Shown: positions 350 through 45,976 of the stretch, piece by piece
Position numbering within the stretch: position 1 is the stretch's first letter
How the letters are laid out: each line of letters opens with the position of its first letter
Source of the DNA: Candidatus Pantoea gossypiicola
GTDB taxonomy: Bacteria > Pseudomonadota > Gammaproteobacteria > Enterobacterales > Enterobacteriaceae
DNA: 64,000 nucleotides
Direction of reading: 5' to 3'
Assembly (NCBI RefSeq): GCF_008632075.1
Contig: NZ_VWVM01000020.1
Coordinates: 1-64,000 of the forward strand
Notes under the pieces: generated by a model
Told to the model about the DNA's origin: nothing
Databases searched by the model: none
Seen by the model: only the letters and a program-made list of their open reading frames with translations
Position numbers and translations under genes: made by a program

Positions 350-449
350 ATGATGCGAATAAAAGAGCTGGCTCAGGAAGCATACCCCCTGCGCAAAGAC
401 GCAAACCGCCATCCATGGCATGCTCAGCGCAGACGATTACGCAGCTTTG

Positions 450-1682
450 TTATAACGCTTCCAGCCTGCTGCGACGTTTGCGCTCACGCATAAACAGGGT
501 CACGAGACCAAACCACAGCACGCCGCTGATAAAGTTAATCAGACAGAACCACAACGTGCCGCCGCTGAAGTAGCCACTTTTCGCCAGTTCAATTCCCACC
601 GCCAGCGTCAGAATACTGATCATCCCCAGCATTGCCGCCACGCTGCCTTTGCCTTCGTCGCTGGCGTAAAGCGTCAGGCGATAGAGTCCGGCATTCACCA
701 TCCCCGCGCCAAAGGCGTAAAGGCTCAGGCCAGCCGTGATGAGCAGATAACCGTGGCTGTTGAGCAGGCTTGCCAGCAGCGCCAGGCTCAGGCCAATCAG
801 AATCGGCCAGGCGGCGAACTTCACCGGCTGTTCAATCGGCACCCGTCCGGCCAGCTTACTCAGCGTCAGGTTACCGGCAATCATCGCCAGAAACACCGGC
901 AACTGCAGCAGGGCATACTGCATGCGAGACAGACCTTCGTCATGCATCAGGATCACCGGTGACAGAGCGACCCAGGTGAGGATGGGGATAAACACCAGCC
1001 CGATAGCAAATGATCCGAACATCACCAGCCGGTCTTTCATCAGTCGGCCATAGTTACGCGCCAGATTCGGCAGGGCAATGGAGTGACTGCGATCGCCTGC
1101 AGTTTCGGGCATTACACGCCACAGCACCACCAAAGCCACCAGGCTGCAGGCGGCAAACAGCCAGAACATACTGCGCCAGCTGGCCACGGTGAGCCAGGCG
1201 GCACCGGCCAGTGGGCCTGCCAGCGGAGCCAGCAGCGCTACGTTGGCCATCAGCGCCATCATGCGCACCGCCAGCGCCTCATCAAAGGCTTCCTGAATCG
1301 CGGCATAGCCGACCGCGCCAATAAAGCAGAGACTGATGCCCTGAATAAAGCGCAGGCTGACAAATTCTTCAATCGAACTGACCCAGTGGGTCAGTATGCA
1401 GGCGACGGCAAAAAACAGGATGCCGGAAAGCATCACGGGTCGCCGGCCAAACTTATCGGAGAGTGGACCCAGCAGCCATTGCAGCACCACGCCACCAATC
1501 AGGTAAGCGGTCAGTGACGTAGATACCCATTCCGGGCCAACAGAGAACTCGCTGGTGACGATCAGCATGCCGGGCTGAATCATGTCGTGAGCGATATAGG
1601 TCGCAAACTCGAACAGCACTAACGCCAGAGGAAAAAGTAAAATTCGGCCGGTAAGCTGGCTGATGGGCTGGAAACGGGGCAT
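450..1682 (-). CDS. MFS multidrug exporter, MdfA family
   Basis: This is a 410-residue inner-membrane proton/drug antiporter of the major facilitator superfamily. The N-terminal half follows MdfA closely: LFEFATYIAHDMIQPGML holds the acidic residue in TM1 that is essential in MdfA (Glu26 there), LLGPLSDKFGRRPVML is motif A, and RFIQGISLCFIGAVGYAAIQ is the TM4-5 segment. Length matches E. coli MdfA (410). The ATG at 1682 has a GGAGG six bases upstream. It is transcribed alone, downstream of the pykA terminator; in E. coli lpxM occupies this place. Substrates cannot be read from sequence; MdtM is the closest alternative. Confidence 0.85.
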   Translation of the reverse strand: MPRFQPISQLTGRILLFPLALVLFEFATYIAHDMIQPGMLIVTSEFSVGPEWVSTSLTAYLIGGVVLQWLLGPLSDKFGRRPVMLSGILFFAVACILTHWVSSIEEFVSLRFIQGISLCFIGAVGYAAIQEAFDEALAVRMMALMANVALLAPLAGPLAGAAWLTVASWRSMFWLFAACSLVALVVLWRVMPETAGDRSHSIALPNLARNYGRLMKDRLVMFGSFAIGLVFIPILTWVALSPVILMHDEGLSRMQYALLQLPVFLAMIAGNLTLSKLAGRVPIEQPVKFAAWPILIGLSLALLASLLNSHGYLLITAGLSLYAFGAGMVNAGLYRLTLYASDEGKGSVAAMLGMISILTLAVGIELAKSGYFSGGTLWFCLINFISGVLWFGLVTLFMRERKRRSRLEAL

Positions 1683-13793: not shown

Positions 13794-13924
13794 ACCTCCC
13801 GGGTGCAGCCTCGCGCTGCGCCCAATCCACGATTTTTTGCCGTTGCGATCACAAACTGATCCGGTTTATGGCCCTGATCCCTGCGTTTGCTGGCATTTCT
13901 ACCGCGCTGTTCTAACCTTAAATT

Positions 13925-14024
13925 GCAAGGCGACACTGCCTTCATAAATGCCAACTTTTAGCGCACGGCTCCCTGAGAGCCATTTCCCTGGACCGAATAT
14001 AGGAATCGTATTCGGTCTTTTTTT
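13925..14024 (+). ncRNA. sdsR: SdsR (RyeB) small RNA
   Basis: The sequence starts GCAAGGCGA, continues ATGCCAACTTTTAGCGCACG, then GAGCCATTTCCCTGGACCG and ends in the terminator hairpin GACCGAATA/TATTCGGTC plus seven T residues. These blocks match my memory of E. coli SdsR almost base for base, and its position after yebY is the expected one. SdsR is a sigma-S-dependent, Hfq-binding RNA that acts on mRNAs and on the antisense RNA SraC (RyeA). CTAACCT upstream could be the -10. In E. coli pphA follows directly; here an insert intervenes. Confidence 0.9.
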
Positions 14025-14035
14025 GTTTTTACGAT

Positions 14036-15977: not shown

Positions 15978-16144
15978 TTGAATTGGTGTTTCGAAAAGAA
16001 TACTTAATTTATCCTGATAAAACCAATTATAAATAATGTGCTTAAAAAGAGTTTTTGGCTGCCATTTAGCGATTATATCAACGGGATACCTCTGATTGAA
16101 GCTAACAAAGCCTATCCGTTCATGAGATTCACTATCAGTCTTAA

Positions 16145-16207
16145 ATTCTCAATTCTCAATTCTCAATTCTCAATTCTCAATTCTCAATTCTCAATTCTCA
16201 ATTCTCA
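16145..16207. repeat. Tandem heptanucleotide repeat, 9 exact copies
   Basis: ATTCTCA is repeated nine times with no mismatch over 63 bp. Since 7 is not a multiple of 3, copy-number change would shift any reading frame through it. One frame does run through (16038-16244) giving FSILNSQ repeats, but it has no other coding signs. The rest of the ~850-bp interval 15538-16384 holds only the disrupted gene at 15802. Confidence 0.95.
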
Positions 16208-16384
16208 ATCGCCTTACTACTGCCAGCACAACCGTAGAAAATAGCCTTCCTACACGCCAACTCCACCCCAAAATTGACCTCAATCAACCTCTCCCAACAT
16301 CCTCCCCAGACCCCTCACCATGTTTACCCACCGTATAAAAACTCAGTCGTAACCTGCCCCGGTGATATTCAACCAGGATCTGTT

Positions 16385-29525: not shown

Positions 29526-29813
29526 TCTCAAATGACGACGAATACATCAGGGGCAGAATAGCCTGCGTGACCCAATGTCGTTATGATGAATTTCGTCCCT
29601 GACAGAGCTACCACCTTAACTGAGTGCCGGAGATAAGCGCCGGGAGGGACGCACTTTTCAGACGCGTTAAATTTCTCATCCACCGACAGCGTGACGCCTT
29701 TGCTGGCAGCCTTCGTTGCACTCTGCTTTCTATCTCCTTCCTCTTGTTCATGCTCTTCATGGTCAGCACTTATACTCTCAGGATATTTTCGGCACAGAGA
29801 GGCACATGCACTG

Positions 29814-39636: not shown

Positions 39637-40518
39637 ATGATGCGTATTGCTCTTTTCCTGATGACCAACCTGGCTGTGATGTTGGTATTCGGGCTGATTC
39701 TCAGCCTGACAGGGATCCAGTCAAGCAGTGTTCAGGGCCTGATGATCATGGCAGGCCTGTTTGGCTTCGGCGGTGCGTTTGTTTCACTGCTGATGTCGAA
39801 GTGGATGGCGCTGCGTTCGGTTGGCGGTGAAGTGATTGAACAGCCACGCAATGAAACTGAGCGCTGGCTGGTGGATACTATTGGCCGTCAGGCCCAACAG
39901 GCGGGCATTGCGATGCCACAGGTCGCGATCTATCACGCACCTGATATCAATGCCTTTGCGACGGGTGCGCGTCGTAACGCCTCACTGGTTGCTGTCTCGA
40001 CCGGTCTGTTGCAGAACATGAGCCGTGATGAGGCGGAAGCGGTACTGGCACACGAAGTGTCGCATATCGCTAATGGTGACATGATCACCATGACGCTGAT
40101 CCAGGGTGTGGTGAACACCTTCGTGATTTTCGTTTCACGTATTCTGGCACAGATTGCGGCGGGCTTTATGTCCGGTAACCGTGATGGTGAAGAGAGCAGC
40201 AACGGCAATCCGCTGGTCTACTTCGCGGTGTCGATGGTGCTGGAGCTGGTATTTGGTATTCTTGCCAGCATCATCACCATGTGGTTCTCGCGTCATCGTG
40301 AGTTCCACGCCGATGCCGGTTCAGCGAAGCTGGTCGGTCGTGAGAAGATGATTGCGGCGTTGCAGCGCCTGAAAACCAGCTACGAACCGCAGGAGCCGAG
40401 CAGCATGATGGCATTCTGTATCAACGGTAAAGGTAAATCGTTCAGCGAGCTGTTTATGTCGCACCCGCCGTTAGATAAGCGTATTGAAGCACTGCGCAGC
40501 GGTCAGTATCTGAAGTAG
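39637..40518 (+). CDS. htpX: Membrane zinc protease HtpX
   Basis: HtpX is an M48 metallopeptidase in inner-membrane quality control, acting with FtsH. At 293 residues it equals E. coli HtpX. Two N-terminal membrane helices (residues ~4-55) precede the zinc site [12 protein letters not shown] (HExxH), further hydrophobic segments, and the third-ligand region [13 protein letters not shown]. In E. coli CpxR induces it; no clear box was identified here. Confidence 0.97.
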
Positions 40519-40537: not shown

Positions 40538-40559
40538 GGCGACCCTCGGGTCGCCTTTT
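40538..40559 (+). terminator. htpX terminator
   Basis: GGCGACC/GGTCGCC stem with loop CTCG and a TTTT tail, 20 bases after the htpX stop. Confidence 0.85.
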
Positions 40560-40616
40560 CTGTTTTAGAAATCAGCATCAGATTGAATCTGACAGCAATA
40601 TCTTAGCTCAACGAGC

Positions 40617-40792
40617 AGAGAACCCAGGCAGAGGAGGAAAGCGTCCCGACGCCTGGATAAAAACGCCGGGAGCGTTTTTAAACAACGCAAAGCGTTGGCC
40701 CGTTTACGGACGCACCTCAGGGATGAGGTGCGTAATGGTGCGGGACGACCGTCATGGATGACAGTCGTCTTTCCGATCTGACAGGGTTCCCT
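40617..40792. repeat. Palindromic GGA-hairpin repeat, copy B
   Basis: The 176-bp element has terminal inverted repeats AGAGAACCC / GGGTTCCCT and shares GGCAGAGGAGGAAAGCGTCC and CTTTCCGATCTGAC with copy A at 184. The longer core holds three hairpins with GGA in the loop: AAAAACGC/GCGTTTTT around CGGGA, GCACCTCA/TGAGGTGC around GGGA, and GTCA/TGAC around TGGA (extended past one mismatch by CGAC/GTCG). AACGC/GCGTT is a further hairpin without GGA. It fills most of the htpX-yebQ gap. CsrA titration by its RNA is inference. Confidence 0.8.
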
Positions 40793-40857
40793 GTGCAGGC
40801 TCGACCATACAGCGAATCGGGTCACATTCTGTCAGGAGTTCGCCTTTTTCACAGCTA

Positions 40858-42228
40858 TCAGGCGCGGGTCTGCGTCATGCGTGACACGCTCACCAGCGCC
40901 GCCACGGCGGCAAAGCTGCCCGCCAGCAGCAGCGAAACGTGCGTACCACGTTCATCAAACAGATTAAACATCAGCGCGACCAGCGCGGCTCCCATACTCT
41001 GGCCCAGCAGACGCGCAGTACCCAGCATGCCGCTGGCACCACCGCTGCGGTTACGCGGAGCAGAGGTGACAATCGTGTGGTTGTTGGGTGACTGGAACAG
41101 TCCGAAACCGGCACCGCACAGCATCATGCGCCAGATTATATCGCCATCATCCGGGTTTACCGGCAGCCAGGCGAGCAGGAACAGCCCCAGCGCGAACATC
41201 GCCAGTCCGATTCCCCCCAACAGCCCGGCATGTACCCGTTCAATCAGGCGGCCGGCAATCGGCGCAAATACCATCGTTGCCAGCGGCCAGGGCGTCAGCA
41301 ACAGACCGGTTGCCACCTCATTACGCTGCAGGACGTTCTGCAGAAAGAAGGGCAGAGAAACCATCGCCAGCATCTGAGCGCAGAACGAACAGACCGATGT
41401 CCCCATCGACAGGCTGAAAATCGGGATACGCAGCAGATCAACCGGCAGCAGCGGTACCGCCATGTTGAGCTGACGACGAATAAAGAACCAGCCAATGACC
41501 AGCAGCGCAACGACCTCGGAGAGCACCAGCAGATGATTTTGTCCCTGGGCAAAACCGCTCAGAGCGGAGATGATCAGGCCGAAGAACAGGGCGTTCATGA
41601 TCGCGCTGGGCACATCGAATTTTTGTGATGTGGCTTTCTGCGGGTTATCAGGCAGCGTTCGCAACGCCAGCCAGAGCGAAATGGCACCCAGCGGGACATT
41701 AATCAGAAACAGCCATTTCCAGCTGGCGACCGAGAGTATTGCTGCCGCTACCGTCGGACCAGCCGCAGTTGACACCGCCACCACCAGCGAGTTGATCGCC
41801 ATGCCGCGTCCCAGATAACGCTGTGGATAGATAATGCGTATCAGCGCGGTATTTACACTCATCAGCGCCGCGCCGCCTAACCCCTGCAGCACACGGGCAA
41901 AGGTCAGCATGGTTAGCGTGGTCGAAAAGGCGCAGAACAAGGATGTCGCAATAAACAGTGCCAGGCCCGCCTGATAGACGCGGCGATAACCCAGCATGTC
42001 GCCAAGAAACGAAAGTGACAGCAGCGAGACGATAATCGCAATCTGATAGGCATTTACAATCCAGATGGACTGCGCCGGGCTGGCATTCAGTTCACGCGAT
42101 ATGGTCGGTAACGCGACATTGGCAATTGCGCCGTCTAATACCGCCATGGTCAGTCCCAGCGCAATGGTGACGATAGCCATATAGCGCTGACGCGTGGGTA
42201 ATCCATCCTGAGGAGGAGAGAGTGTCAT
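40858..42228 (-). CDS. yebQ: MFS drug transporter, DHA2 family (YebQ-like)
   Basis: A 456-residue exporter with about fourteen hydrophobic segments. Motif C-type and DHA2 signatures are visible: LDGAIANVALPTISRELNAS in TM1 and GYRRVYQAGLALF after the first loop, ARVLQGLGGAALMSVNTALI in TM4. E. coli YebQ is 457 residues and lies at the same place between htpX and kdgR, which supports the name. Substrate unknown. Confidence 0.88.
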   Translation of the reverse strand: MTLSPPQDGLPTRQRYMAIVTIALGLTMAVLDGAIANVALPTISRELNASPAQSIWIVNAYQIAIIVSLLSLSFLGDMLGYRRVYQAGLALFIATSLFCAFSTTLTMLTFARVLQGLGGAALMSVNTALIRIIYPQRYLGRGMAINSLVVAVSTAAGPTVAAAILSVASWKWLFLINVPLGAISLWLALRTLPDNPQKATSQKFDVPSAIMNALFFGLIISALSGFAQGQNHLLVLSEVVALLVIGWFFIRRQLNMAVPLLPVDLLRIPIFSLSMGTSVCSFCAQMLAMVSLPFFLQNVLQRNEVATGLLLTPWPLATMVFAPIAGRLIERVHAGLLGGIGLAMFALGLFLLAWLPVNPDDGDIIWRMMLCGAGFGLFQSPNNHTIVTSAPRNRSGGASGMLGTARLLGQSMGAALVALMFNLFDERGTHVSLLLAGSFAAVAALVSVSRMTQTRA

Positions 42229-45022: not shown

Positions 45023-45475
45023 ATCAGACATCAATTTTTCAAATCGAAAGTTAAATTCTTAATAAGTAAAACCCGCATCGTTGCTTTTATTTGGAGCAAG
45101 GCTAATGGCTGGCTCCTGCTTTTGGTGCACAAAAAGCGTTATTTGTACGAAATAAAAGGCGCTGTACAGGATTGACGTCAGATTTAGGATATCTTCAACC
45201 GTTACCGCTTCGCTTATTCATTTCGCCATTGCCATATTTGTGAAATATTAATTTCTTATGGTATCCATCGGATTGAACCTGGCAACATAGTCGGACGAGG
45301 GCGCTGACCGCGCGCTTACTTTATTCTCAGGCACAGTTGTAAACCCCACTGAACAGGCAATGTGAGCCTTCTGGCAAATATGTGCGCAGGCGCGCCAGTG
45401 CTTTAAAAATGGCTTGCCATTATTTTGGGGATATGTGATAACAATTCGTGGGTTAAACGAGGTACAGTTCTGTTT

Positions 45476-45608
45476 ATGCATGGCATCTTCAGTAAAGAAG
45501 TACGAGTAAAGACGTTGACGTTGAATACCGCTTCCTTGCCGAACCTTAATTAGTGCCTCATGCAGTAATGTCTCTGGTTTTTCTGTAGACAGCTTTCGGG
45601 CTAAATAA
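45476..45608 (+). pseudogene. yobF: yobF (DUF2527) remnant with two frame breaks
   Basis: Three frames carry successive pieces of YobF: MHGIFSKEV (from ATG 45476), SKDVDVEYRFLAEP (45505-45546) and ISASCSNVSGFSVDSFRAK ending at TAA 45608. Against the E. coli protein (as I recall it) each junction needs one inserted base. The nucleotide sequence is otherwise well conserved, and the end sits 21 bases before cspC as expected. Either the gene is broken or two sequencing deletions occurred. YobF is a heat-shock-related small protein in E. coli. The interval 45023-45475 holds the cspC/yobF promoter region and no other gene I can support. Confidence 0.75.
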
Positions 45609-45629
45609 ACATCTAAAGGAATTTGCAAA

Positions 45630-45839
45630 ATGGCAAAGATTAAAGGTCAGGTTAAGTGGTTCAACGAGTCTAAAGGTTTTGGTTTTATCACTCCTGCTGA
45701 CGGCAGCAAAGATGTGTTCGTACACTTCTCTGCTATTCAGGGCAACGGTTTTAAAACCCTGGCTGAAGGCCAGAGCGTTGAGTTCGAAATTCAGGACGGC
45801 CAGAAAGGCCCGGCAGCTGTTAACGTCACTGCTATCTGA
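45630..45839 (+). CDS. cspC: Cold-shock-family RNA chaperone CspC
   Basis: A 69-residue OB-fold nucleic-acid-binding protein, constitutively made, that affects stability of rpoS and stress mRNAs. RNP1 (KGFGFI) and RNP2 (VFVHF) are intact. [14 protein letters not shown] and the end PAAVNVTAI mark CspC rather than CspE. AAAGGA precedes the ATG. Confidence 0.97.
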
Positions 45840-45881
45840 TTCGACTCCGCCTCGGTGCATTGCATCCTGACACGGAATCTT

Positions 45882-45909
45882 AAAGCCCTGGCTCTACAGC
45901 CGGGGCTTT
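45882..45909 (+). terminator. cspC terminator
   Basis: AAAGCCC...GGGCTTT stem, extended by GGCT/AGCC, 42 bases after the cspC stop. Confidence 0.8.
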
Positions 45910-45976
45910 CTTTATGCTTCCGATGCGGAAACGTTAAGGTTACACTGCGCCGCGTTATCTGATGCCGGAGCACATG

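Follow-up and report, generated by a model that had tools for sequence, protein, structure and literature searches.

The repeat copies in the window

The window, which is the whole 64,000-nt stretch of DNA from Candidatus Pantoea gossypiicola that was analysed, carries a long repeat copy (copy B) between htpX (39637-40518, +) and a converging MFS transporter gene (40858-42228, -), the latter identified as EmrB-type by a match below the cut-off of the model. Copy B, a short-form copy (copy A), a diverged element and their parts are listed below.

184-284, +, copy A, short form, with hairpin 1 at 212-233 (loop CA-CGGA-TG) and hairpin 2 at 240-253 (loop CA-GGGA-TG)
373-465, -, diverged element with other outer arms, CA-TGGA-TG loop at 410-417; weak covariance-model match (27.4 bits, E 9.5e-4)
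40551-40559, unstranded, left TCGCCTTTT, possible 9-nt target duplication, within the terminator-like hairpin and T run of htpX (GACCCTCGGGTC...)
40560-40839, +, probable whole element (copy B and its conserved flanks), ends placed by the possible 9-nt duplication
40617-40792, +, copy B, with outer segments common to copy A (repeat families D3 and D4)
40617-40648, +, 5' outer and middle stem arm of copy B (fold, blastn)
40649-40658, +, hairpin 1 apex of copy B, GGA at 40655-40657; the core insert opens it, and the consensus A is missing here
40658-40734, +, core insert of copy B, one 77-nt unit; in other copies tandem, with 78-nt spacing
40659-40679, +, core hairpin of copy B, loop CGGGA (minimum-energy fold)
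40710-40733, +, core hairpin of copy B, CsrA-type loop CA-GGGA-TG (fold and motif match)
40745-40768, +, hairpin 2 of copy B, CsrA-type loop CA-TGGA-TG (fold and motif match)
40769-40792, +, 3' middle and outer stem arm of copy B (fold, blastn)
40840-40848, unstranded, right TCGCCTTTT, possible duplication on the other side of copy B

The preliminary description of this DNA had held that copies A and B have their outer segments in common and that copy B has a longer, different core; this agrees with the shared repeat families D3 and D4, and the different core is an insert of about 77 nt that interrupts the first of the two apical hairpins in the short form. It had also counted four hairpins in copy B, three of them with GGA in the loop. 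The three GGA loops were recovered (CGGGA, GGGA and UGGA), and the count was corrected, as the minimum-energy fold contains five hairpins, the remaining loops being AAA and UUUA. The core hairpin at 40659-40679 does not have the full consensus because no A precedes its GGA. On either strand, the fold of copy B is more stable than all of 200 shuffles (z -6.7 and -8.7), and copy A likewise beats its shuffles on both strands (z -6.0 and -6.4). By eye, the flanks outside 40617-40792 are conserved across 41 copies of the source genome. Across the whole 64-kb window, CANGGATG is not enriched (12 matches against 11.6 expected); copies A and B account for four of the 12 matches, and the minus-strand element at about 373-465 for one more.

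Forms, arrangement and distribution of the element

Regarding the source genome, blastn returned 71 matches when copy B was the query and 65 for copy A, which merge into approximately 58 elements over the score threshold, fragments included. The short form consists of two apical hairpins. Copy B is an example of the long form, which contains the 77-nt core within the first hairpin, in tandem arrays of up to five units; each unit adds one further CsrA-type hairpin, and many source-genome copies have gained the core. These copies are mostly about 80-96% alike, by eye show at least three types of outer arms around the same inner hairpins, and have lost or lack hairpin parts in 6 of 44 cases; in copy B, hairpin 1 is opened.

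Copies less than 400 nt apart almost always stand in minus-plus order, back to back, with the GGA strands directed outward. This order was seen in 9 of the 12 clusters of the loop-masked set described below, the others being one ++, one -- and one -++. Paired copies occur at L333, L337, L363, L366, L389, L392, L406, L407 and L408, and in the source genome at L041, L045, L061, L062 and L064; copy A (+) and the element at 373-465 (-) in the window have the opposite order. Whole elements also stand in tandem, six of them at L326:1019-2259 with a spacing of about 227 nt and four at L332:834-1443 with a spacing of about 150-200 nt. At L151 and L190 of Gammaproteobacteria SCGC AG-212-F23, a GGATTACAGGATGTAATCC hairpin precedes GCGCCATGGATGGCGC, with GGA in both loops.

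Model R1, built from nine source-genome copies, detected the element in 9 of the 119 sampled genomes of the family, source included, and it also retrieves copies from Yersinia, among them one in Y. similis at E 3e-13. Search with R2 extended the distribution to 48 of 247 genomes of the order and to 67 of 370 genomes, or 57 of 273 genera, of the class. At the level of the phylum, 35 of 397 genomes matched, all 35 from the same class or closer, in a sample whose out-of-class share is not itemised. An exact pattern of hairpin 1 and linker placed relatives at least in Yersinia, Pantoea, Pectobacterium, Sodalis, Samsonia and Prodigiosinella, and at least in Morganella, Oceanisphaera, Stenotrophomonas, Marinobacter and other Gammaproteobacteria, a list of genera that is a lower bound from 80 of 118 stretches. 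Among 18 genomes searched more deeply, with the best 150 candidates scored in each, copy numbers ranged from at least 6 to at least 122 per genome.

Identity with YPAL/RU-2 and sites of insertion

The YPAL family of Yersinia palindromic repeats has reportedly been catalogued since 2006. Judged by its sequence, the present repeat is a member of the YPAL/RU-2 family, known miniature mobile elements inserted at terminators. By eye, the characteristic ends TTCAGACTGCTGACAAACCC ... CACTTTGTCAATAACCTCA of 41 source-genome copies match RU-2 as printed in PMC2759123, and the order of parts and the inner hairpins are also as in this 167-168 bp Y. pestis sequence; unlike YPAL/RU-2, the Pantoea copies carry other outer arms and the tandem core. 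The available part of PMC2229807 describes YPAL as mobile and intergenic, with inverted repeats in its interior, target sites of dyad symmetry and duplications of 3 to 26 bp. A long internal inverted repeat that folds to a stable hairpin is present here, as the folds of copies A and B and the covariation indicate. Target duplications of variable size at dyad symmetry, a feature by which YPAL/RU-2 is recognised, were observed as well: flanking direct repeats exceed the 95% point of the null in 6 of 44 source-genome elements, where about two are expected and most show none, and the three longest, of 31, 25 and 25 nt (a single mismatch in the third), extend across terminators. The TCGCCTTTT duplication of copy B is weak, its score equalling the 95% point of the null and not exceeding it.

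The element prefers the space between converging genes. By simple codon-scored gene calls, 30 of 36 element-bearing intervals of the source genome are convergent against 20 of 130 without an element, as are 37 of 65 against 55 of 276 in the named genomes and 22 of 73 against 5 of 41 in the loop-masked set. In the inspected copies, a terminator precedes the element, so that read-through transcription may be low. The preliminary description had proposed strand bias relative to neighbouring transcripts as a check, and this expectation failed: among copies next to co-directional genes, 41 are sense (4, 12 and 25) and 37 antisense (2, 18 and 17). For the tandem contexts of the source genome, the counts depend on the caller, a crude one giving 4 sense and 11 antisense and the codon-scored one 4 and 2. 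As orientation is unbiased, selection through the neighbouring gene is not supported.

Two other identities were considered and set aside. A plain CGTC-tagged REP is a palindrome of 20-40 bp with an unpaired CGTC tag, as described in passages of PMC3733652, whereas the present element exceeds 100 nt; GCGTC does precede hairpin 1, but it is paired in the consensus and the tag is missing in relatives. An autonomous element between the paired copies of L325 was rejected, as only small unconvincing frames are found there.

Conservation of structure and loops

The terminal palindromes had been described as differing in sequence while continuing to pair, and the alignment bears this out. Among 82 distinct rows, double changes occur at 39 of 43 pairs, and 92.5% of pairing cells are paired against 71.3% after shuffling. 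The covariation score is 0.541 against 0.160 and falls below 0.11 when the alignment is slid by 1-3 columns. None of 500 shuffles reaches the observed values of these three measures; model-fitted alignments favour the structure of the model, and these figures should be read with this in mind. In the outer arms, read on the GGA strand, G-U pairs outnumber A-C by 67 to 19 over 55 clusters (31 elements against 6, p 4e-5). The excess persists when arms are placed by Watson-Crick pairs only (48:15, 23 elements against 2; 25:6, 18 against 3) and is weaker when distinct column types are counted (13 against 9, 29 against 16); in the middle helix, distinct types show no excess of G-U over A-C (2 against 3, 5 against 6). 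The outer-arm asymmetry indicates that the selected structure is that of the GGA-bearing single strand, in the form of either RNA or single-stranded DNA, and disfavours a purely DNA-level symmetric palindrome. In alignment A5, a U-G wobble at the apical base (columns 36/125) is fixed in 72 of the 76 rows with letters on both sides.

While the outer arms and stems vary and still pair, the two inner hairpins keep a C-A-N-GGA-N-G loop. A pattern comprising hairpin 1 and the linker leaves hairpin 2 unconstrained and free of search bias; in 56 distinct segments downstream of its 82 matches, hairpin 2 has GGA in 51 and CANGGANG in 49. When the 23 nt around hairpin 2 were folded in isolation, 52 distinct segments gave a fold and only 25 of them had GGA in the predicted loop, because the stem is short; structure-aligned columns were therefore used. 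In 99 such rows, gathered by R1, which scores loops, and reduced from 123 by dropping opposite-strand and identical rows, the columns of hairpin 2 read C 90/91, A 89/91, N (G52 T26 A13), G 91/91, G 90/91, A 89/91, N (T44 C26 G11 A9) and G 87/89; identity between rows is 37% in the stem against 97% for the fixed letters. The two GGAs are 19, 20 and 21 nt apart in 4, 79 and 8 of 91 copies. In the 58 source-genome elements, the CsrA-type motif occurs 127 times in sense and 3 times in antisense.

A covariance model with both loops masked with N (R3), made from twenty diverse sequences, matched 37 of 40 genomes, all 40 of which were previously positive with R2. From 60 regions taken from the 150 best matches listed, 101 copies were reduced to 97 distinct ones by dropping opposite-strand and identical rows. 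GGA is present in 94 of these 97 in hairpin 1 and in 94 in hairpin 2, and exact CANGGANG in 81 and 91, respectively; among the 53 copies less than 75% alike, GGA is found in 52 and 51. Identity is 38% in the arms and 56% in the stem of hairpin 1, against 97-98% for A-G-G-A and 40-47% at the free positions. The seeds had GGA before masking, six of the 40 genomes had supplied some of them, and they account for at least two of the 97 copies; with seeds and genomes thus preselected, the masked test shows that the loops do not drive retrieval, and relatives without GGA may exist. Both the claim that the loop motif is kept while stems differ and the proposed comparison of GGA in loops and stems thus came out as anticipated, GGA staying in the loops across structure-aligned copies as stems and arms change. 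The stability of GNRA-type loops was rejected as the cause of GGA, since UGGA is almost as frequent as GGGA and the loops AGGA and CGGA are also seen.

Relation to CsrA and the Csr RNAs

Csr is a central post-transcriptional regulatory system whose sponges are generally taken to be a small number of dedicated sRNAs. The CsrA site is given as RUACARGGAUGU, mostly in six-nucleotide loops, with bridging of sites 10 to 63 nt apart (passages of PMC7652899), as A/UCANGGANGU/A (PMC6849547, in part) and as A(N)GGAX, in which N and X vary and N may be absent (PMC4005645, in part). The repeat has an A(N)GGAX loop on a C-G-closed stem in both the structure-aligned and the loop-masked copies, its two hairpins reproduce the fixed and free positions of the CsrA/RsmE site, and the GGA spacing of about 20 nt falls within the reported range of bridging by a CsrA dimer. 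Some Pantoea copies have the variant CCAGGACGG, which lacks N, as do two stem-loops of RsmZ. The loop consensus thus points to the CsrA/RsmA protein family as a probable partner. A CsrA gene was found in 66 of 67 element-bearing genomes against 65 of 80 from the same sample without a listed match (Fisher p 8e-4), although relatedness and genome size confound the comparison; the exception is a draft genome (G529) that has the element and no CsrA match. The source genome itself has csrA, CsrB over the cut-off and a CsrC-like match below it, the latter two elsewhere than the repeats, and Rfam gave no CsrB/CsrC match at gathering score at the window repeat.

CsrB, CsrC and RsmZ, as described in the passages available, bind CsrA/RsmE through hairpins whose A(N)GGAX loops are of the type seen in the repeat; they are single dedicated genes with many sites, whereas the repeat is dispersed and mobile. 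RrA, RrB and RrF of the E. coli rRNA operons come from between two terminators, have GGA loops and bind CsrA in vitro (PMC8144298, in part); unlike the repeat, they are not dispersed mobile elements, and the likeness noted here is one of description. The only described RNA matching the repeat family is Rfam Ysr224 (RF02770), which matches the strand opposite GGA. Its model matched 2 of 20 loci scanned (L126 and L236), and neither the window copies nor the other 18 relatives. Several Ysr224 copies are expressed in Y. ruckeri according to the accessible part of PMC12112432, which shows transcripts, but not of the GGA strand.

In the titles, abstract openings and passages of the open-access literature searched, nothing links the repeat to CsrA, and no published CsrA-binding experiment on it was found; literal repeat strings occur in PMC2759123 and in an unrelated mouse-cell paper. 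The published accounts of YPAL/RU-2, as far as their accessible parts go, describe no GGA loops, no CsrA and no spread beyond Yersinia and Erwinia carotovora, save three copies in E. coli. Thus, the family is a known mobile repeat, and a regular CsrA-type double site kept while the surrounding sequence turns over appears to be undescribed in this literature.

Proposed role and competing explanations

The explanation that we consider rather probable is that a mobile YPAL/RU-2 element at a terminator encodes, on its GGA strand, an RNA that folds with paired CsrA sites and is bound by CsrA. A YPAL/RU-2 miniature element would have inserted between converging gene ends at a terminator, and the selected form would be the single strand carrying the GGA motifs. 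As RNA, this strand would form a long stem, variable in sequence, with two C-A-N-GGA-N-G hairpins at its top, and with the GGAs approximately 20 nt apart, one CsrA dimer could clamp both; the 77-nt core, in up to five units, would multiply the CsrA-type hairpins in many source-genome copies. Transcription of the GGA strand and its binding by CsrA are inferred, as is the protein-binding RNA of the preliminary description. Within this explanation, a benefit to the element itself, through RNA stability or mobility, with CsrA titration as a by-product, is favoured and is the least certain part.

That the loops seem conserved merely because the copies are young, with no selection, might be suggested by the high similarity within the source genome (mostly about 80-96%), but it is scarcely credible, being contradicted by the cross-genome contrast between arms (38%), A-G-G-A (97-98%) and adjacent free positions (40-47%) and by compensatory change above all shuffles and slides. 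The structure could instead act as DNA. Some transposases target hairpin apices of single-stranded DNA, and a mobilising enzyme might recognise the loops in this form, the likeness to CsrA sites being coincidental; insertion near hairpin-forming terminators would suit such an enzyme, conserved letters of the linker and middle helix are unexplained by CsrA, and G-T wobbles are tolerated in DNA, so that single-stranded DNA gives the same strand asymmetry. This is nevertheless rather doubtful, as both loops have exactly the fixed and free positions of the CsrA/RsmE site, their spacing would suit a CsrA dimer, and no enzyme gene lies between the paired copies of L325, the sole case inspected.

The same loop consensus would also serve copies kept by the host because they tune Csr, acting in mRNA 3' ends as sponges or landing pads for CsrA. 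The location at gene ends, the multiplication of sites by tandem cores and tandem arrays, and at least 122 copies in one genome (best 150 candidates scored) agree with this, and E. coli RNAs from between two terminators bind CsrA (PMC8144298, in part). It is improbable, however, in view of orientation that is random relative to co-directional genes, the known mobile behaviour of the family, its presence in only 67 of the 370 class genomes sampled and, for sponges in 3' untranslated regions, the Ysr224 match to the strand opposite GGA. A sponge selected by the host accounts less well for the random orientation than does a role for the element itself. The CsrA-bound mobile element could be taken further: the repeats may be RNA-level parasites, widespread in Gammaproteobacteria, that dock on CsrA, the CsrA-clamped RNA being the mobile intermediate and high copy number shifting the Csr balance. 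Insertion by reverse transcription would agree with the strand-specific RNA structure, the orientation-blind insertion and the terminator-associated duplications of variable length. The extended proposal as a whole is unlikely. If dozens to more than 100 dispersed copies make CsrA-clamping RNA, CsrA titration would vary with the load of mobile elements; the YPAL family would gain a molecular partner, and the source of selection on RNA structure in bacterial miniature elements would become directly testable.

Other features of the window

In addition to the repeat, the window contains a TCAATTC tandem repeat (family D1) at 16135-16211, and Rfam matches were obtained for SraC/RyeA with SdsR/RyeB at 13887-14028, for RydB at 29595-29657 and for the cspA thermoregulator at 45456-45912.
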